DNA of 64,000 nucleotides, taken from positions 1 through 64,000 of the forward strand of contig NZ_KB898667.1 of assembly GCF_000377765.1 (NCBI RefSeq), read 5' to 3'. Shown here in pieces: positions 7,943-19,882 of this stretch. Under the pieces are notes generated by a model. It made no database searches and was not told where the DNA came from. It saw only the letters and a program-made list of their open reading frames with translations. The position numbers and the translations under genes were made by a program. Position 1 is the stretch's first letter. The number at the start of each line of letters is the position of its first letter. The DNA comes from Gracilibacillus lacisalsi DSM 19029 (GTDB lineage Bacteria > Bacillota > Bacilli > Bacillales > Amphibacillaceae).

Positions 7943-8893
7943 ATGGATTACGGAAACGAAGTAGGACAAATTCTAGAAAACATTGAAAAAGTTATGATTG
8001 GAAAGGAACGTGAGGTAACACTCAGTCTTGTTGCTCTGTTAGCTGATGGGCATGTATTATTGGAAGACGTACCAGGTGTAGGAAAAACAATGATGGTGCG
8101 AGCATTGTCAAAATCATTAAATTGTGATTTTAAAAGAATCCAATTCACACCTGATTTATTACCTTCTGATGTAACAGGTGTTTCGATATATAATCCAAAA
8201 GAAATGGTATTTGAATTTCGAAGTGGCCCTATTTTTGGTGATATCGTATTAGCGGATGAGATTAATAGAACCTCACCAAAAACCCAATCCGCTTTACTGG
8301 AAGCGATGGAGGAAATGAATGTAACAGTAGATGGCATGACAAAATCACTGCAAAAGCCTTTTTTCGTAATGGCAACCCAAAATCCAGTAGACTATGAAGG
8401 AACATATCCACTACCTGAAGCACAACTTGACCGTTTCCTCATGAAGTTAAGTATGGGATATCCCAACGAAGCAGATGAATTAGAAATGTTAAATCGAACT
8501 GATCGTGAGCATCCAATTGATGAAATAGAAGCAGTTATCAATAAAGAACAATTACTAAATATGCAAAAAGAAGTAGACAGTCTCTATGTTGATAACACGG
8601 TAAAACGTTATATTGTTCAACTGGTATCTGAAACGAGAAAAAGTCCTTACGTTCAACTAGGGGTAAGTCCACGTGGTTCGATTTCATTGATGAAAGCAGC
8701 AAAAGCATATGCTTATATTCAAAAACGCGACTATGTGATACCAGACGACATCGTTTATTTAGCTCCTTATGTTCTATCACACCGGGTCATATTACGTCCG
8801 GAAGCAAGATATGAAGGTGTTACCCAATCTTCTCTTATTACGCAAATACTAGAAGAAATCGATGTCCCTGTACGGAAGGAATTGCATGGATGA
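7943..8893 (+). CDS. yeaC: MoxR-family AAA+ ATPase
   Basis: 316 aa. MoxR proteins are chaperone-like ATPases that act with the DUF58 and transglutaminase products encoded next to them. Visible are Walker A (GVGKT in DVPGVGKTMMVRAL), Walker B (ADEINR), and sensor-type motifs ATQNPVDYEGTYPLPEAQLDRFLMK. I chose ATG 7943 because GGAGGCG (7930-7936) precedes it; the frame opens earlier at GTG 7922 without a ribosome site. The next gene overlaps the stop by 4 nt, so the three genes form one operon, in the same order as B. subtilis yeaC-yeaD-yebA. Confidence 0.9.
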   Translation: MDYGNEVGQILENIEKVMIGKEREVTLSLVALLADGHVLLEDVPGVGKTMMVRALSKSLNCDFKRIQFTPDLLPSDVTGVSIYNPKEMVFEFRSGPIFGDIVLADEINRTSPKTQSALLEAMEEMNVTVDGMTKSLQKPFFVMATQNPVDYEGTYPLPEAQLDRFLMKLSMGYPNEADELEMLNRTDREHPIDEIEAVINKEQLLNMQKEVDSLYVDNTVKRYIVQLVSETRKSPYVQLGVSPRGSISLMKAAKAYAYIQKRDYVIPDDIVYLAPYVLSHRVILRPEARYEGVTQSSLITQILEEIDVPVRKELHG

Positions 8894-10158
8894 AACGAAT
8901 CATTAAAAAAATGGTAAGAGAACTGCAACTACTTCTTTTACTAGGGATCTTGTTTGTATTTGCAATGTTTCAAGGAGGATTTGTTAGCTGGTTTTTATTC
9001 TACAGTATGTTACCTATTATTCTCTATATGCTGTTTATCCCATTCTATCCGATTCACAATTGGAAGATCGATAGAATATTATCGGACCGGTATTTGGAAA
9101 CAGGTAGTGAGATAGAGGTAACGATTACGATCAAGCGAAAATCACGCTTTCCTATTTTCTATTTAGTTTTAGAAGAGATGTTTCCTGAAACACTTCAGTT
9201 TCAAGATATCGGCAAGAAAAAATATCAATCTCTTTCTGATCAACCATCCTATAATAGAAAGCGTTATGTAAAAAAAGTCATATATCCAGGTTTTCAGAAA
9301 GAATTTACTGTTTCGTATCGGATAGAGCATCTGCCACGAGGAAAACATCAGTTGTCCGATATCAATCTGAAAATGGGTGATCCATTCGGTTTTGTTGAAT
9401 GTAATCATCCATTTTATGTCACGAAAGAGTTTTTTGTTTATCCTGCTATTCAAGACTTGAAGTGGAAACAGCAATCTATGAGTTTAGAAGAAGGCTCCAA
9501 TTCCTCACATGTCCATGACGAAAAGCTGACAAATGTTGTATCAGGTGTTCGAGAATATATTCCCGGGGATCGCTTTTCATGGATTGATTGGAAAACGACT
9601 GCTCGGAAAAATACTGTGATGACAAAAGAGTTTGAACAGGAAAAGGATTCCAGTATTGTCGTTGTTTTAGATGTGGGTGGCCTACAACAATCGCAACGAT
9701 TAGTGTTTGAAGCAGTAGTGGAATGGACAGCATCTGTTTTACAGTCGTTGCGTAAGAAAGATCAAAACATCTCGTTTTATACGTTCGGAAAAACGGAGAG
9801 ATTTTTCTCCAATCAACAATTACAGTTCCAATTTCCAGCAGTGCAAAACTACCTCGCAACTGTAACACAAGAACAGGTATCATTAGCAGAACGAATAACA
9901 ACTCCAATGAAGGAACTTTCAAGAGGAAGTGTCATTTTGTTTGTTATTCATCATTTAGATGAATTATTAGTAGAGAGATTATCCAACTGGAAGAAACAAG
10001 ATTATACCATAGTAGTTTGCTATGTTATTCCAGAAAAACAATTGAACGATAAAGAAGAGCAATATATTCGGGCACTACGCTTGAAAAATATAAGTGTACA
10101 AGCCGTAACAGAAAGGGAACTGAAGCAAGAACAGTGGGAGGTGCAGGCATCTCGATGA
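8890..10158 (+). CDS. yeaD: DUF58-domain membrane protein
   Basis: 422 aa. Two membrane segments lie at about residues 12-55 (two hydrophobic runs separated by SWF), followed by a soluble part with the DUF58 signature YIPGDRFSWIDWKTTARKN near residue 220 and a von Willebrand-like fold after it (VVVLDVGG). The family is always found with MoxR ATPases. It overlaps yeaC (ATGA) and yebA (ATGA) by 4 nt each, so translation is probably coupled. The molecular activity is unknown. Confidence 0.88.
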   Translation: MKRIIKKMVRELQLLLLLGILFVFAMFQGGFVSWFLFYSMLPIILYMLFIPFYPIHNWKIDRILSDRYLETGSEIEVTITIKRKSRFPIFYLVLEEMFPETLQFQDIGKKKYQSLSDQPSYNRKRYVKKVIYPGFQKEFTVSYRIEHLPRGKHQLSDINLKMGDPFGFVECNHPFYVTKEFFVYPAIQDLKWKQQSMSLEEGSNSSHVHDEKLTNVVSGVREYIPGDRFSWIDWKTTARKNTVMTKEFEQEKDSSIVVVLDVGGLQQSQRLVFEAVVEWTASVLQSLRKKDQNISFYTFGKTERFFSNQQLQFQFPAVQNYLATVTQEQVSLAERITTPMKELSRGSVILFVIHHLDELLVERLSNWKKQDYTIVVCYVIPEKQLNDKEEQYIRALRLKNISVQAVTERELKQEQWEVQASR

Positions 10159-12368
10159 AAAAAAATATCTCTTTAGAATCTGTATCTTCTTTTATTCTAT
10201 TATTAGCAGGTTTTCTATTATTCTGGGAATGGCTCCGCCCGTTAGAACAAATAACAGATACAGGTAATGTGCATTTGTTTGTCATTTATACGGCTATTTG
10301 CTTTGTTACTTCTTTCTTAACAAGGAATGGCTGGGCCAAGTTCGTAATCAAATCTGTTTCCCTACTGTTTATACTAGATTATTTATTTCTTGATGCTACC
10401 TTGTTGTCTCGTGAATGGATACAGACTTTAACGTTGGAATTAAGGTATAATCTCGCAGCGGTTTGGAAAAACGATTGGGTATTAATGACATCCTTTTTCA
10501 GAAGCTTTTTATTCTTGCTATTGTTATGGCTTATGAGCTATCTATTACACTATTGGTTTATGGTTGCTAATAAATTCTTCTTATTTGTTGTTTTAACGTT
10601 CGTTTATTTAGCAGTATTAGATACGTATACGATATACGATGGTCAAGCAGCCATGATCAGAACGTTTGTCGTATCCTTTCTGGTTCTCGGACTCAGCAGA
10701 TATGTGAAATTGATGAATAATGTGGATACCACTCATCGTAAGCAACATGTTTGGAGTTGGATGACACCGGTGCTGGTCATTGTACTGTTTGCTACCATAC
10801 TTGGTATCTATTCACCGAAGTTAAATCCACAATGGCCAGATCCTGTTCCTTTTATTCAAAGTACAGCAGGACATGTTGGTTTTAGTGATGGTCCAGTACA
10901 AAAAGTCGGTTATGGGGAAGACGATTCACAATTGGGAGGTTCTTTTGTACAGGATGATTCTCCTGTGTTTGAGGCAATTGCTCATGATGATATTTATTGG
11001 AGAATAGAATCGAAGGACTTGTATACTGGAAAGGGCTGGGAACGTTCAACAGAATTAGACTTTCAAGAATTAACCAATGGTAATCTAGGTTGGAGTACTT
11101 TTTCACAACAGGTGGAAACAACTTCATACAATGCGGAGGTACGACCAGTAAATCAAAATCAATTGCCGAAAGTTGTATATCCGTATGGTATTAATCGTAT
11201 TACGTCATTAGACCAAGGACAGTTTTTTACGGATAGTGAATTCGGTCTGATAGAATCTGAATCATCCGAACAGAATCAAAATTTGTCTTATACGATTGAA
11301 TATGATGCTCCTTCCTATGCGATAAATGAATTGAGAGATAATTCAGGCGATGATCCTGCAGGGATAAAAGAACAGTATTTGCAATTACCAGACAGTCTAC
11401 CAGAACGCGTAAGTGAATTAGCACTTGAGATAACAGACGGAGAAGACACTAGGTACGATAAAGCACAGGCGATAGAAAGCTACTTCTCTACCAATGGGTA
11501 CGTGTATCAGATCGAAGATGTATCTGTCCCAGAAGAAGGCGAGGATTATGTTGATCAATTTTTATTCGAGACCAAAGTAGGTTATTGTGATAATTTTTCA
11601 ACTTCTATGGTCGTGATGCTTCGTGCTTTGGATATCCCTGCACGGTGGGTGAAAGGATTCACTGGTGGCGTGGAAGCGGCAGATCAGCCTCCACTTCCAG
11701 ACGACTATTCTTTATATGAAGTGACGAATAATAACGCGCACTCATGGGTAGAGGTATATTTTCCTGAAACTGGCTGGGTACCTTTTGAACCAACAAGTGG
11801 TTTTACGAACCCAACTGACTTTTATCTAGAAACGAGCGGAGATGTGAACACAGAGGATTATATGATCGATGAAGAAGAAACGGAAGAAGAAACGGAGCAA
11901 GAATCAAGTGAAGTCGAACAGGAAAATGAACAACTAAATCCAGATGAAGATGAAAGTGAAGTTGGTGGTGCCGATAATGAGGAGAAAGGAAATGGTGGAA
12001 ACTATTATTGGATAGGTGCTGTACTGCTCATCTTAGCGATTCTTGCTACCATCATTTATCGTAAACTTACGGAACTAAGAGATTGGTATTTGTTAAAGAA
12101 ATGGGATCGATTAAAACAAAGGTTAGAGATAGAAGCATCTTATGTCTACTTACTGGAAATACTAGAAAAAAGAGGGATGCCTCGAACGAAAGGGCAAACT
12201 TTACGACAGTATGCCAAAGAAGTAGACAGGCGTTTAGGAACTTCAGAAATGTATGATATCACACTAGCATATGAAGAATACCTGTATCGTGACCAACCAT
12301 CATTAGCAAAGGATAACAAGCGATTACATGGGTTATTCCAACAAATGATTGATCAAATATTAGCTTGA
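10155..12368 (+). CDS. yebA: Membrane-bound transglutaminase-like protein
   Basis: 737 aa. An N-terminal block of about six membrane helices (to about residue 225) precedes an extracytoplasmic transglutaminase-core domain with GYCDNFSTS (Cys about 478) and NAHSWVEVYF (His about 529). The third triad position reads WVPFEPTSG, Glu rather than the more usual Asp. A very acidic linker (EEETEEETEQ) leads to another helix at about 618-640 and a cytoplasmic DUF4129-like tail. I chose ATG 10155 (ATGA overlap with yeaD) over GTG 10134. The family is thought to act on cell-surface proteins; no substrate is known. Confidence 0.87.
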   Translation: MKKNISLESVSSFILLLAGFLLFWEWLRPLEQITDTGNVHLFVIYTAICFVTSFLTRNGWAKFVIKSVSLLFILDYLFLDATLLSREWIQTLTLELRYNLAAVWKNDWVLMTSFFRSFLFLLLLWLMSYLLHYWFMVANKFFLFVVLTFVYLAVLDTYTIYDGQAAMIRTFVVSFLVLGLSRYVKLMNNVDTTHRKQHVWSWMTPVLVIVLFATILGIYSPKLNPQWPDPVPFIQSTAGHVGFSDGPVQKVGYGEDDSQLGGSFVQDDSPVFEAIAHDDIYWRIESKDLYTGKGWERSTELDFQELTNGNLGWSTFSQQVETTSYNAEVRPVNQNQLPKVVYPYGINRITSLDQGQFFTDSEFGLIESESSEQNQNLSYTIEYDAPSYAINELRDNSGDDPAGIKEQYLQLPDSLPERVSELALEITDGEDTRYDKAQAIESYFSTNGYVYQIEDVSVPEEGEDYVDQFLFETKVGYCDNFSTSMVVMLRALDIPARWVKGFTGGVEAADQPPLPDDYSLYEVTNNNAHSWVEVYFPETGWVPFEPTSGFTNPTDFYLETSGDVNTEDYMIDEEETEEETEQESSEVEQENEQLNPDEDESEVGGADNEEKGNGGNYYWIGAVLLILAILATIIYRKLTELRDWYLLKKWDRLKQRLEIEASYVYLLEILEKRGMPRTKGQTLRQYAKEVDRRLGTSEMYDITLAYEEYLYRDQPSLAKDNKRLHGLFQQMIDQILA

Positions 12369-12446: not shown

Positions 12447-12517
12447 CCTTCATATATGTTTGAGAATAAGGCTCAAACGTTTCTACCGGAACACCGTAAA
12501 TGTTCGGACTATGAAGG
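12447..12517 (+). promoter_or_regulatory. Guanine riboswitch aptamer of guaA
   Basis: Classic purine aptamer: P1 pairs CCTTCATA (12447-12454) with TATGAAGG (12510-12517); P2 is GTTTGAG/CTCAAAC; P3 is CCGGAACA/TGTTCGG with the conserved loops GTTTCTACC and CCGTAAA. The specificity base in GGACTATG is C, which in this family means guanine or hypoxanthine rather than adenine. Ligand binding should favour the terminator downstream, switching guaA off when guanine is plentiful. Confidence 0.95.
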
Positions 12518-12536
12518 CGGGGGTCTTGCCGGGATT

Positions 12537-12575
12537 TCTGCCTTTCTGTTTATTATGAAGAAAGGCAGATTTTTT
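12537..12575 (+). terminator. Riboswitch-controlled terminator before guaA
   Basis: TCTGCCTTTCT (12537-12547) pairs perfectly with AGAAAGGCAGA (12559-12569) and is followed by six T. Placed 20 nt after the aptamer, it is the expression platform. Confidence 0.9.
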
Positions 12576-12588
12576 ATGATAAAGATGA

Positions 12589-12789
12589 TTTCGCAATAAA
12601 CAATGGGGATTTCGCAATAAAGATAGCGAGTTTCGCAATAAACAATGGGGATTTCGCAATAAAGGTAGCGAGTTTCGCAATAAACAATAGGGATTTCGCA
12701 ATAAAGGTAGCGAGTTTCGCAATAAACAATAGGGATTTCGCAATAAAGATAGCGAATTTCGCAATAAACGATGGAGATTTCACAACAAT
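12589..12789 (+). repeat. 21-bp tandem repeat array in the guaA leader
   Basis: Ten units of exactly 21 bp start with TTTCGCAATAAA at 12589 and every 21 bases after; the last, at 12778, is degenerate. Units largely alternate between two forms, one continuing CAATGGGGA-like and one AGATAGCGA/AGGTAGCGA-like, giving a 42-bp higher order. The array lies between the riboswitch terminator and the guaA ribosome site, so it is transcribed only when the terminator is read through. Because 21 is a multiple of three, long open frames appear on the opposite strand; they are artefacts. Confidence 0.95.
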
Positions 12790-15287: not shown

Positions 15288-15308
15288 AAATCATAATCAT
15301 TACTATTT
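15288..15308 (+). promoter_or_regulatory. Zur box (imperfect)
   Basis: AAATCATAATCATTACTATTT differs at two positions from the Bacillus Zur consensus AAATCGTAATNATTACGATTT. It lies just upstream of the putative -35 region. Confidence 0.6.
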
Positions 15309-15340: not shown

Positions 15341-15361
15341 TAATCGTAATGATTACGATTT
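15341..15361 (+). promoter_or_regulatory. Zur box (near-perfect)
   Basis: TAATCGTAATGATTACGATTT matches the Zur consensus at all but the first base. It lies immediately after the TATAAT box, covering the likely transcription start, so Zn-loaded Zur would block transcription of the ZinT-like gene. Confidence 0.88.
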
Positions 15362-15509: not shown

Positions 15510-16520
15510 ATGAAAAGATTACTTACTAGTTTATCAATTTTATTGTTAATCAGTTTTTATCTAACTGCATGTCAAGGCACAGAAGGTGAGCAAGTGGATG
15601 GAACAGAGGAAGGGGAACAAGAAGTACATACAGACGAAGAACATGACCATGACCATCATGAAGACGAAGGACAAGAGATAGAAGCACCAGAAGGTATTGA
15701 AATCGAAGGAGTTGCTGACCATTATCATACAGGGGATACAATGGAGCTAACTGCAGTCTTAGAAGAAGATTCAGAGTTCGATCATTGGCACTGGTATAGT
15801 AGAGAAAGTGAAGAAGCTGAATGGGAAGTTGTTTCAGGACAGGAGTCAGAAACGTTTACAGGTGAAGCAACAGTCAATGGATTAGAAATTAAAGCAGTTT
15901 TATTCGATGATGATCACGAGCCTAGTGTTCAGTCCGCACCAGTTGAAGTTATCATTGATGACCATCATGGACATGATGAAGAAAGTCAACAAATCTATGA
16001 AGGTTACTTTGAAGATAGTCAAGTAGAAGATCGTGAGTTGTCAGATTGGGAAGGGGATTGGCAATCGGTTTATCCATATCTGTTATCTGGAGATTTAGAC
16101 GAAGTGTTTGAACATAAAGCAGAAGATGGAGATATGACAGCAGAAGAGTATAAGGAGTACTACACTATTGGATACGAAACGGATGTTGAGCGCATCATTA
16201 TTGAGGATGGCCAGGTAACCTTTTTTGAAAATGGAAATGAATATTCAGGAGAGTACAAATCAGATGGTTACGAGATTCTTACTTATGAAGCAGGTAATAG
16301 AGGTGTACGATTTATATTTGAATTAGTGGATGGATCAGATGAAATGCCTCAGTATATTCAATTTAGTGATCATAATATATTCCCGGTCGATTCTCATCAT
16401 TATCACTTATATTGGGGTGATGATCGTGAAGAACTGTTAGAGGAAGTTACGAATTGGCCAACGTATTATCCTTCCGAATTAGATAAGGATGGAATCGTTC
16501 AGGAAATGCTAGCACATTAA
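15510..16520 (+). CDS. ZinT-like zinc-binding lipoprotein with an N-terminal His-rich domain
   Basis: 336 aa. A signal peptide ends in the lipobox LTAC (Cys21), so the protein is anchored outside the membrane. An acidic His-rich spacer (about 40-55) is followed by a DHYHTGD ... DHWHW domain (about 62-152), then a complete ZinT/YodA domain (about 160-336) with YEGYFEDSQV, a YTIGYETDVERI strand and the His cluster SHHYHLYWG near the end. ZinT proteins bind zinc and feed it to ZnuA. Streptococcal AdcA fuses ZnuA to ZinT; here the two are separate genes in tandem. The upstream Zur boxes imply expression under zinc limitation. Confidence 0.9.
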   Translation: MKRLLTSLSILLLISFYLTACQGTEGEQVDGTEEGEQEVHTDEEHDHDHHEDEGQEIEAPEGIEIEGVADHYHTGDTMELTAVLEEDSEFDHWHWYSRESEEAEWEVVSGQESETFTGEATVNGLEIKAVLFDDDHEPSVQSAPVEVIIDDHHGHDEESQQIYEGYFEDSQVEDRELSDWEGDWQSVYPYLLSGDLDEVFEHKAEDGDMTAEEYKEYYTIGYETDVERIIIEDGQVTFFENGNEYSGEYKSDGYEILTYEAGNRGVRFIFELVDGSDEMPQYIQFSDHNIFPVDSHHYHLYWGDDREELLEEVTNWPTYYPSELDKDGIVQEMLAH

Positions 16521-16664
16521 TTGTTTGAACGACGTTATTCCAATGGTTTGATAAGAATTCTTTAACCCTCAAGGGCTAACAAACCTGCTGAGGGAAGTCT
16601 GACTTTATCATAAGATAATAAAAAATGTAATGAATATAACAAAGAAGGTATTTTTTTAGTGTTT

Positions 16665-16685
16665 AAATCGTAATCATTACGTATA
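16665..16685 (+). promoter_or_regulatory. Zur box upstream of znuA
   Basis: AAATCGTAATCATTACGTATA has an intact left half and core and about three mismatches in the right end of the Zur consensus. It is 24 nt ahead of the znuA start, so the znuACB genes probably have their own Zur-controlled promoter. Confidence 0.8.
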
Positions 16686-16708
16686 AAGTGGTGTAAGGAG
16701 AATGGATA

Positions 16709-18331
16709 ATGAAAAGAAATTGGTTCGTCACTGTTTTATTTAGTTTCATTATGTGTGCTACTCTCTTGGGATGTAATCAAAATGAGGGTGAAAGCACTGC
16801 AAATGAAAAGTTATCAGTTGTCACATCGTTTTATCCAATGTATGAATTTACGCAACAAGTAGCAGGGGATCGAGCGGATGTATCACTGATGGTCTCTGCC
16901 GGAGAAGATGCACACCATTATGAACCAAGCGCACAAGATGTAGCAGGTGTTAATGAAGCAGAAGTATTGGTTTATAGCAGTGAAGAAATGGAACATTGGG
17001 TAGAGAGTTTATTAAATACAGTAGAGAACGATGATCTTGTAATAGTTCGTACAGCAGATGGTGTTGACCTAGTTAATACTGAAGGTTCAGATCATGACCA
17101 TGATCATGAGGACGAGGAAAATCAAGAAGCTATTGGAAATATAAACATTCAAGGAGTTGCTGATCATTATCACACTGGTGACATGATCGGATTAACAGCG
17201 GAATTAGATGAAGATGTAGAATATGATCACTGGCACTGGTATACAAGGGAAAGTGCTGATGAGGAATGGGCAACTGTTCCGGATCAAGGAGGACCTGAAT
17301 TCGAATATGAAGCCTCAGGAGAAAGTTTCGAACTTCGAGCGGTACTTTTCGATGGCGAACATAATGAATATGCAGCATCAGAACCAGTAGAAATTGTCAT
17401 TGATGATCATGATGGTGACGATCATGATCATAGCGAAGAAGAACACGATCATAATCATGGTGAAGAAGGCGGGCATGATCACGAACATGGCCAAGACGAG
17501 GAATCTGGTCAGGATAATGAAAATGGAACTGGTACCATTGAAATCGCCGGCTTGGCGGATCACTATCACACAGGAGATGTAGTTACACTTGTTGCTCAGC
17601 TCGATGAAAATATAGAGTATGATCATTGGCACTGGTTTACACGTGAAAGTGAAGATGAGCAATGGGAAGTTGTATCTGGTCAGCAAACCGATCACTTTGA
17701 ATATGAAACCACTGGAGAAAGCTTCGAAGTTAAAGCGGTACTTTATGACAACGATCATAATACGTATGCGGAATCTGAGCCAGTGTCCATTATCATCGAT
17801 GATCATGAATCACACGATCCACATATTTGGTTAGATCCGGTATTAGCACAAGAACAAGTGAATGTTATTCGTGATGCACTAATTGAAGCAGATCCAGACG
17901 GAAAAGAAATTTATGAAGAAAATGCGGAAGCCTTTAACGAAGAGCTTCAAGCATTAGATGAAGAATATCAAGCAAAACTTGGAGATGCAGAGAATCGTGC
18001 TTTTGTAGTGCAACACCAAGCATTTGGATACCTTGCAAACCGATATAATTTAGAGCAAATCGCTATTGGCGGTTTATCTACAGAAGTAGAACCAAGTCCA
18101 TCGCGTATTGCTGAGATTGCAAACCTAGTGGAAGAGCATGATGTTCCAGTTATTTATTATCAACAGGGCGCTAATTCAGCAATAGCAGAAACGGTCGCTA
18201 CTGAAACAGGAACAGAGACAGCAGCTATGTATGATTTAGAAGTATTGTCTGAAGAATTACAAGCAGAGGATCTAGGATACGTCGATGCGATGCGTCAGAA
18301 CTTGGAAGCTTTACAGTTAAGTGTTCAATAA
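16709..18331 (+). CDS. znuA: Zinc ABC transporter substrate-binding lipoprotein with two inserted His-rich domains
   Basis: 540 aa, far longer than the usual roughly 310. A lipobox LLGC gives Cys22. The N-lobe (about 35-125) has the first zinc ligand region AHHYEPS (His69/70). The C-lobe (about 368-540) has DPHIW (His372) and QHQAFGYLA (His436). Between them, where ZnuA normally has a His-rich loop, lie two copies of the DHYHTGD ... DHWHW domain (about 144-234 and 276-366) separated by a linker full of HDHNH/HDHEH. Family role: capture of Zn2+ for the ZnuBC importer. The inserts are also present singly in the neighbouring ZinT-like protein, so they probably serve zinc capture (inference). Confidence 0.93.
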   Translation: MKRNWFVTVLFSFIMCATLLGCNQNEGESTANEKLSVVTSFYPMYEFTQQVAGDRADVSLMVSAGEDAHHYEPSAQDVAGVNEAEVLVYSSEEMEHWVESLLNTVENDDLVIVRTADGVDLVNTEGSDHDHDHEDEENQEAIGNINIQGVADHYHTGDMIGLTAELDEDVEYDHWHWYTRESADEEWATVPDQGGPEFEYEASGESFELRAVLFDGEHNEYAASEPVEIVIDDHDGDDHDHSEEEHDHNHGEEGGHDHEHGQDEESGQDNENGTGTIEIAGLADHYHTGDVVTLVAQLDENIEYDHWHWFTRESEDEQWEVVSGQQTDHFEYETTGESFEVKAVLYDNDHNTYAESEPVSIIIDDHESHDPHIWLDPVLAQEQVNVIRDALIEADPDGKEIYEENAEAFNEELQALDEEYQAKLGDAENRAFVVQHQAFGYLANRYNLEQIAIGGLSTEVEPSPSRIAEIANLVEEHDVPVIYYQQGANSAIAETVATETGTETAAMYDLEVLSEELQAEDLGYVDAMRQNLEALQLSVQ

Positions 18332-18383: not shown

Positions 18384-19094
18384 ATGGTGCATTATATTGA
18401 AGTGAAAAACCTTGCCTTTCAGTACGAAGAAGAACCAGTGTTAGAAAATATTTCATTTGAAGTAGATGCAGAAGATTTTGTAATGCTGACAGGAGAAAAT
18501 GGTGCAGCAAAAACGACACTATTACGTAATATTTTGGGGTTACTTAAGCCATCGAAAGGTAGTGTCCGAATCGCTTCCCAAAATCACTTTGGTGAGAAGT
18601 TAGTTGTCGGATATGTTTCCCAGCAAGTTGCATCCTTTAACGCTGGCTTTCCAAGCACTGTACTGGAGCTTGTGCAATCTGGGCGCTATCAGAGAGGTAA
18701 ATGGTTTAAACGTTTAGATAAAGAAGACAAGATGCATGTCCAACGGTCACTTGAATCAGTGGGAATGTGGGACATGCGGCATAAGAAAATCGGAGAACTA
18801 TCTGGTGGACAAAAACAGCGAATTTCTCTCGCTCGTGTATTTGCAACAGATCCTGATTTGTTCGTACTAGATGAACCTACTACAGGTATGGATGGGAATG
18901 CTCGAAAAGAATTCTATAAGTTACTCAAACACAATTGTAAAGAACATGGTAAAGGTATTTTGATGGTTACCCACGATCATGAAGAAATTCGCCACTATGC
19001 TGATAAACATATTGAGCTAGTGAGGAAGGAGGACTCACCGTGGAGATGTTTTTCCATGGATTCATGCAAAGAGCTTTCCAAGCCTCACTCTTAA
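18384..19094 (+). CDS. znuC: Zinc ABC transporter ATP-binding protein
   Basis: 236 aa ABC ATPase. Walker A reads GENGAAKTT, with Ala where most ABC proteins have Gly before the Lys; I recall this variant from other Gram-positive AdcC/ZnuC proteins. The signature LSGGQKQR, Walker B LFVLDEP and the switch His in VTHDH are intact. It starts 50 nt after znuA and its 3' end overlaps the permease gene by 55 nt, so translation of the two is probably coupled. It powers zinc import together with ZnuB. Confidence 0.93.
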   Translation: MVHYIEVKNLAFQYEEEPVLENISFEVDAEDFVMLTGENGAAKTTLLRNILGLLKPSKGSVRIASQNHFGEKLVVGYVSQQVASFNAGFPSTVLELVQSGRYQRGKWFKRLDKEDKMHVQRSLESVGMWDMRHKKIGELSGGQKQRISLARVFATDPDLFVLDEPTTGMDGNARKEFYKLLKHNCKEHGKGILMVTHDHEEIRHYADKHIELVRKEDSPWRCFSMDSCKELSKPHS

Positions 19095-19882
19095 TATCAT
19101 TAATTGCACCAGTTTTAGGCTTGTTTTTAATTTTACGTAGACAATCTCTAATGGCAGACACGTTATCCCATGTCTCCTTAGCAGGTGTAGCACTGGGCTT
19201 GTTAATTGGTGTTAATCCAACATGGACCAATATGTTAGTGGTAGCGGTGATTGCGATATTACTGGAATATTTGCGTGCGGTGTACCGCACCTATTCGGAA
19301 ATTTCTATTGCGATTTTGATGTCAGCCGGAATGGCTCTAGTATTAGTCCTAATGGGATTAAGTGATGGCGGGGCAACTTTAAGTATCAACCAATTTTTAT
19401 TTGGTTCAATTGTTACCATTAGTGAACAGCAAGTATGGATGTTATTAATGCTTACCATTATTATTAGTCTACTATATTTAGTTTTTCGCAAGCCTATGTA
19501 TATTTTGACATTTGATGAAGAAACAGCCTTCACCGCTGGGCTGCCTATCAACACGATGTCTGTTTTGTTTAATGTATTAACAGGAATAACAATTGCTGTG
19601 ATTATGCCTATCGTTGGGGCTTTGTTGGTTTCAGCCATCATCGTTTTACCCGCTGCTATCTCGATGCGTTTAAGTAAAAGTTTTAATGGTGTTATTTTAA
19701 TCGGAATAGTTATTGCATTAATTGGGATGTTAAGTGGCTTAGTCGCTTCTTATGAAGTAGGTACTCCCCCGGGAGCTACGATTACATTAATATTAATTGT
19801 AGTTTTTGCTATCACAGCATTTATCAAGAATGTATTTCGTTACAATAAATTCGAAAGATTTTTTAAGAAAAGTAATATATGA
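19040..19882 (+). CDS. znuB: Zinc ABC transporter permease
   Basis: 280 aa ABC-3 family permease with about eight membrane segments, including DTLSHVSLAGVALG and the conserved LPAAISMRLSKS region that contacts the ATPase. I chose GTG 19040, 7 nt after AAGGAGG (19026-19032); this places the start inside the end of znuC. The strong terminator just downstream ends the zinc transcript. Confidence 0.93.
   Translation: MEMFFHGFMQRAFQASLLISLIAPVLGLFLILRRQSLMADTLSHVSLAGVALGLLIGVNPTWTNMLVVAVIAILLEYLRAVYRTYSEISIAILMSAGMALVLVLMGLSDGGATLSINQFLFGSIVTISEQQVWMLLMLTIIISLLYLVFRKPMYILTFDEETAFTAGLPINTMSVLFNVLTGITIAVIMPIVGALLVSAIIVLPAAISMRLSKSFNGVILIGIVIALIGMLSGLVASYEVGTPPGATITLILIVVFAITAFIKNVFRYNKFERFFKKSNI

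Follow-up and report, generated by a model that had tools for sequence, protein, structure and literature searches.

In a zinc-uptake locus of Gracilibacillus lacisalsi DSM 19029, a module of ~94 residues occurs once in a ZinT-like lipoprotein and twice inside the substrate-binding protein (SBP) ZnuA. The locus lies in the window analysed here, i.e., the stretch of 64,000 nucleotides at positions 1 to 64,000 of contig NZ_KB898667.1. The module is a real domain of zinc uptake found in two phyla and uncatalogued in the libraries searched; accessory zinc-capture domains as such are already known. We give a probability of about 0.72 to its being a Fn3/Ig-like plug-in domain for zinc capture, with two separate predicted metal sites, that feeds the transporter.

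The three copies, all on the + strand (ZinT residues 59-154, 15684..15971; ZnuA residues 141-236, 17129..17416, and 273-368, 17525..17812), align without gaps, and 42 of the 96 columns are invariant. Pairwise scores among them are 286-354 (52, 52, and 59 identities), compared with a maximum of 27 over 200 residue shuffles of each pair. The aligned segments enclose the three copies named in a preliminary description of the locus (ZinT 62-152, ZnuA 144-234 and 276-366). The same description held that the modules replace the His-rich loop of ZnuA, which proved incorrect. His-rich linkers are retained ahead of module 1 (DHDHDHEDEE, residues 128-137) and in the stretch separating the two modules (~236-262, within a His/Asp/Glu-rich linker at 17417..17524, + strand), and the ZnuA modules thus sit inside an expanded loop. 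Relative to Bacillus subtilis YcdH, the insertion break falls at YcdH ~128-129. ZnuA has 31 His in total, and the module is acidic (isoelectric point, pI, ~4.05).

None of the three copies matches a Pfam or NCBIfam model over its curated cut-off. The ZinT copy gives the best sub-threshold match, to Phage_tail_2 (20.6 bits vs cut-off 23.8; Pfam E 4.9e-4), and the ZnuA copies have no match in either library at E 0.01. Among 84 module members, no library family is matched by more than 11, the number that show the weak Phage_tail_2 match, and the best NCBIfam E is 0.0088; PHROGs gave a single weak match over the module (E 0.069). No solved relative was found by sequence, the best profile match being an antibody light chain at E 0.25. 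The initial impression that this is not a named domain therefore holds, profile search included. In the open-licence PMC library, the module is undescribed in the titles and abstract openings among the matches listed, and motif strings retrieved two unrelated papers.

The AlphaFold model of the isolated module is confident (predicted local distance difference test, pLDDT, 93.1; predicted template modelling score, pTM, 0.84) and has seven strands. Fn3/Ig-like PDB chains rank highest in Foldseek, with template modelling (TM) scores to the query of ~0.5-0.7 and no E < 0.001. On this model the module is an autonomous seven-strand Fn3/Ig-like beta-sandwich, in line with the stand-alone sandwich unit proposed at the outset. 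In the full-length ZnuA model (mean pLDDT 76.2; best match YcdH) both modules are folded and the linkers fall below 50, including residues 236-273 between the modules.

Six conserved histidines of the module form two sets. Set 1 (H13/H15/H94) has two His in the A-B loop (DHYHTGD) and one ending the last strand (IDDH); set 2 (H34/H36/H78) has a pair on strand C (DHWHW) plus a third His in the F-G turn (D-x-x-H). The corresponding residues are H71, H73, H152 and H92, H94, H136 in ZinT, H153, H155, H234 and H174, H176, H218 in ZnuA copy 1, and H285, H287, H366 and H306, H308, H350 in ZnuA copy 2. In 93 non-redundant copies, H13, H15, and H94 each have a frequency of 0.97, and H34, H36, and H78 of 0.70, 0.75, and 0.68, respectively. 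Of 183 copies, 179 have the whole of set 1, 4 have none of it and 0 have part of it (whole in 90 of the 93 non-redundant copies). The four copies without it are all actinobacterial (L070, L072 twice, L114), and two of these have set 2 (L070 copy 2, L072 copy 4). Set 2 is complete in 52 of the 93 copies, partial in 22 and absent in 19.

Of 1,268 variable column pairs, H36-H78 is the most strongly correlated. When the histidine columns are left out of tree building, H36 and H78 change jointly on 7 branches (Jaccard 0.269 vs a control maximum of 0.231, 706 pairs). Covariation thus splits the histidines into two sets rather than the single clustered DHYH + HWHW site first envisaged. With the strand layout of Fn3 domains as a guide, the strand order of the model would assign the A-B loop/C-terminal pole to set 1 and the opposite, strand C/F-G pole to set 2. 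Loci found by peptide pattern could inflate the His counts, and the sets were checked on 73 copies that come from profile-found loci: of these, 72 have all of set 1 and 1 has none of it, and for set 2 the complete, missing and partial cases number 37, 25 and 11, respectively. A search profile with 12 site columns blanked gave 343 domains in the fetched frames, only 2 of them, both fragments, beyond the full-profile matches, so the His sets are not an artefact of the search profile. Ligand-like conservation and covariation of these histidines are supported.

The genes lie on the + strand in the order zinT (15510-16520), znuA (16709-18331), znuC (18384-19094), and znuB (19040-19882). The ZinT-like lipoprotein (336 aa) consists of a signal/lipobox, a His-rich stretch, one module and a ZinT domain (residues 159-336; PF09223, E 2.3e-84, 282.2 bits vs cut-off 27). 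ZnuA (540 aa), a lipoprotein with both modules within the His-rich loop region, matches PF01297 (E 1.4e-71, 241.5 bits vs cut-off 29). Its SBP metal ligands H69, H372, H436, and E511 are intact, and all four are invariant in 24 sequences. H69 aligns to an AdcA His that is presumably the fourth metal ligand, and H372, H436, and E511 align to His140, His204, and Glu279, named as AdcA ligands in an excerpt of PMC7858048. The H-x8-H-x-H spacing of ZinT-type zinc ligands, H452, H461, and H463 in AdcA (PMC3842936, in part), is kept in the window ZinT as H288, H297, and H299, the comparison being one of spacing only. Two further PF01297 proteins of the genome, frames of 314 and 345 aa, have no module.

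Beyond this locus, 142 distinct module proteins were collected as complete frames in fetched loci, with identical last 150 residues removed and a line set at 35 bits; 53 come from pattern-found and 89 from profile-found loci. They comprise 58 module-ZinT, 37 two-module ZnuA, 31 one-module ZnuA, 2 ZnuA with a C-terminal module and 14 proteins with neither core. A ZinT or ZnuA core is thus present in 128 of the 142, in a set partly fetched around such genes, and 68 distinct ZnuA have one or two modules in the His-loop region. In 67 SBPs the module insert interrupts the core, with a core segment on either side (median core position 97, junction 96); the SBP of L146 has the same layout, though outside the overlap rule of the script. 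The C-terminal-module ZnuA (L129, 2832-4211; L176, 1470-2822) both have perfect Zur-type boxes. The 14 core-less proteins include Streptomyces surface proteins adjoining a metal ATP-binding cassette (ABC) transporter and four small lipoproteins (L029, L031, L063, L066), of which L029 and L031 have a long His tail.

Two apparent stand-alone module genes, both counted within the 142, were rejected. L156 (G089; 1040-2100, - strand) is a module-ZinT broken into two frames, since its C-terminal end is the start of the ZinT domain and the remainder is in another frame, and L073 is a truncated module-ZinT. Among 50 ZinT matches in the window's family, 28 frames are of 324-364 aa and every one is also on the module list; 12 are of 249-289 aa, 7 of 529-571 aa (AdcA-like fusions by length), and 3 are broken genes or fragments. 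The 19 other intact forms (249-289 and 529-571 aa) include no module match, so that close relatives of ZinT can have the module or lack it.

Palindromes of the form TCGTAATNATTACGA, which we take to be the Bacillus Zur box, precede both zinT and znuA. Upstream of zinT are TCGTAATGATTACGA (15344..15358), the sole perfect match detected across the 4.4-Mb assembly, and a second, weaker palindrome with 2 mismatches (15289..15308); a box with 1 mismatch (16668..16682) is upstream of znuA. None of 100 window shuffles reached the palindrome match count of the real window. The zinc-uptake context proposed for the locus is thus supported by Zur-type boxes as well as by transporter genes. Within 250 bases upstream and at up to 3 mismatches, boxes were found for 98 of the 142 module genes, compared with 3/142 shuffles and 13/461 control frames, the latter being stop-to-stop frames of at least 200 aa and not curated genes. 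By class, they precede 48/58 module-ZinT, 21/37 two-module ZnuA, 22/31 one-module ZnuA, 2/2 C-terminal and 5/14 core-less genes; the five boxed core-less genes, the broken L156 among them, are all in Bacillota. Several box-less two-module ZnuA genes lie directly downstream of zinT. Boxes of this form precede 0 of 8 actinobacterial module genes; the actinobacterial Zur motif differs from the Bacillus type.

In the whole genome, six places have the box with at most 1 mismatch. Two of these lie next to S14 ribosomal protein and COG0523-type GTPase genes, and another lies next to a metal-type ABC ATPase gene; the Zur targets of B. subtilis include S14* and the COG0523 protein YciC (PMC5007448, in part). 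Place C4, within a long open frame, is unlikely to be a promoter. At L204 (G000:C2:49544), a metal-type ABC ATPase and a permease-like frame stand behind a one-mismatch Zur-type box, and no SBP was noticed among the frames listed for this 3-kb locus. At L206 (G000:C5:274304), two Zur-box-like palindromes lie between the S14 and COG0523 genes and a lipoprotein gene, whose product resembles, by eye, a siderophore-type binding protein.

The module is present in 36 of 159 genomes of the window's family. In the window's own genus it occurs in 3 of 17 genomes, and a ZinT match, one a fragment, in 15 of 17. At order level 21 of 397 genomes match, other families of the order included and three by weak matches only, and the phylum sample has matches in 4 of 299, one being the window itself and the other 3 weak. 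In the genome collection, 40 loci were confirmed among 130 pattern matches, mostly in Bacillaceae-type genera; carriers were also found in Paenibacillus, Desemzia, Alkalibacterium, Streptomyces, Nocardioides, Microbacterium, and a strain named Bacillus methanolicus. Several carrier genera are not known to us as halophiles. Confinement to a single Zur regulon, as first suggested, is not supported by this wider distribution. The genus of the Streptomyces radicis locus gave matches in 13 of 150 genomes, only 2 of them strong. Large proteins of Streptomyces, of other Bacillota and of the three order-level genomes gave weak profile matches (E 1e-3 to 1e-5) that resemble general Ig-like similarity and, lying below the 35-bit line, were not counted. 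Among viral contigs 0 of 49 pattern stretches were confirmed, phages gave none, and plasmids gave one record, a 1.4-Mb Niallia replicon with 2 places; in these collections the module is not a mobile-element trait.

In Actinomycetota, the Streptomyces proteins L065 and L070 each have two choice_anch_M domains and two modules. The score for the LAVTG sortase signal is 27.3 in L070 (over the cut-off of 27) and 25.8 in L065 (just under it). ZnuA-, ZnuC-, and ZnuB-like genes adjoin the module protein in 5 of 6 neighbourhoods (L113-L117); the SBP is TIGR03772 in these five and has a choice_anch_M domain between two ZnuA core stretches in all five, a position that would correspond broadly to that of the module in Bacillaceae ZnuA. 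Kinship of the module with choice_anch_M was rejected on a negative profile comparison: against choice_anch_M/TIGR03769 the hhalign probability is 0.13%, and TIGR03769 is not among the NCBIfam matches of the 84 members. Because the two are unrelated by profile, it looks as if two domains have been used at one place of the SBP.

Several observations weigh against a zinc-capture function. Set 1 shows only 2 loss events on the tree, and its support is therefore mainly conservation. The H34-H78 pair is unremarkable on the tree, with 16 of 706 control pairs equal or higher. Set 2 is wholly lacking in the 19 of 93 copies mentioned above and is weak in single-module ZnuA (n = 19; H34 47%, H36 42%, H78 26%). 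The box pattern read backwards gives 5 genome places vs 6, so that gene content carries the Zur argument and single near-matches have little weight. In 123 of the 159 family genomes no module was found, which makes it an accessory. Finally, the neighbourhood of Nocardioides L118, where an HAF-repeat protein (8709-10622, - strand) has one full module, has no ZnuA-, ZnuB-, or ZnuC-like gene in its 10.8 kb.

Four known systems are comparable. AdcA, in the excerpted account, likewise has an extra metal-binding domain on a cluster A-I SBP with a His-rich loop at the interface, and zinc transfer is speculated (PMC7858048). The cores of the window ZnuA and ZinT match AdcA. The added domain of AdcA is ZinT-like, in contrast to the Fn3/Ig-like module, and the 7 ZinT frames of AdcA-like length (529-571 aa) in the window's family have no module match. 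The choice_anch_M/TIGR03769 domain is also a repeated domain common to an SBP and its surface partner, placed between SBP core stretches, and it is found with the module on one Streptomyces polypeptide; it differs in having HxD and HxH ~150 residues apart, whereas the module has HxH and IDDH. In Corynebacterium diphtheriae, ZnuE/F/G with an HxD/HxH domain are reported to bind zinc, the in vitro role of the conserved His being inconclusive according to the authors (PMC12445094, in part); by the motif GHID...HTH in L065, this domain may be choice_anch_M. PhtD is a streptococcal histidine-triad surface scavenger of zinc that is proposed to hand the metal to a cluster A-I SBP (PMC3842936, in part). 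It has HxxHxH in small three-strand units, unlike the three window copies, which do not have HxxHxH, and none of the 84 members matches PF04270 at E 0.1. ZepA, a cyanobacterial exoprotein and Zur target, is in the excerpt seen an Ig-like sandwich with a three-His site containing H-F/Y-H (PMC10957091). Compared by description only, its motif is H-X(2-9)-H-F/Y-H, and the corresponding upstream range of the window copies contains no His.

From the computed module, fold prediction, architectures, covariation, boxes and transporter context, we infer zinc as the metal, its binding at both sets and its onward relay. Site 1 would be formed by the three near-invariant His and site 2 by the more dispensable trio, each binding zinc. 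The module would add ligand capacity outside the membrane in ZinT, in the ZnuA loop region or C terminus, in small lipoproteins and in surface proteins of Actinomycetota. In starvation, modules and His-rich linkers would collect zinc and hand it to the cluster A-I SBP site (H69, H372, H436, E511) for import by ZnuBC. Such capture and feeding appears the economical interpretation, by analogy with what is speculated for the AdcA domains and proposed for PhtD. A wider proposal, which we entertain only tentatively and think rather doubtful, is a general zinc carrier: an Ig-like domain with sites at opposite poles, common to the surface-protein, free-lipoprotein, ZinT, and SBP layers in two phyla, would pass zinc from module to module across the wall, in at one pole and out at the other, and into ZnuA, with the SBPs of Actinomycetota having reached the same design by a different domain in the same SBP part.

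Modules and His-rich linkers might instead hold zinc as a reserve or a shield against excess, a storage or buffering role that would suit the 31 His of ZnuA, the low pI of the module and the module-plus-His-tail lipoproteins L029 and L031. We consider it unlikely, as the Zur-type boxes point to expression when zinc is scarce rather than in excess, and the neighbours seen are importer genes. Still less probable is a role mainly as spacer or adhesion-type Ig-like domain, in which the module holds ZinT and ZnuA off the membrane or binds wall or surface polymers while metal only stabilises it. The common Fn3/Ig sandwich, the occurrence in the HAF-repeat protein and in surface proteins of Streptomyces that have sortase-type tails, and the copies that have lost set 2 would fit such a role; it would not require an invariant HxH with a distant His or His sets that vary as units, and 128 of 142 uses are in zinc-uptake proteins (with the sampling noted above), the ZnuA placement being the metal-handling loop region. 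Binding of nickel, cobalt, or copper to broaden the importer is very improbable, for although HxH with a third His fits several metals and the ZinT-like domain of AdcA is reported to accept Co and Ni as well (PMC7858048, in part), the boxes are of Zur type and the SBP ligands of zinc type.

Under the zinc-capture interpretation, the module bears on how zinc passes across the Gram-positive wall to the SBP and on the role of the His-rich loop of ZnuA. Since the module is discrete and foldable, has predicted ligands and lies in the loop region of 68 ZnuA, loop function is testable by clean domain deletion. The module profile also lets unannotated zinc-starvation lipoproteins and surface proteins be named.

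The remaining genes of the locus are the znuC-like ABC ATPase (18384..19094, + strand; PF00005) and the znuB-like permease (19040..19882, + strand; PF00950, E 1.1e-72). The Walker A motif of ZnuC is GENGAAKTT, with Ala preceding Lys, a position at which Gly is usual; the same motif occurs in L066. Elsewhere in the window, a frame upstream of guaA (12483-12764, - strand) has the repeats LLRNP.CLLRNSL and is a tandem repeat, perhaps a non-coding array.

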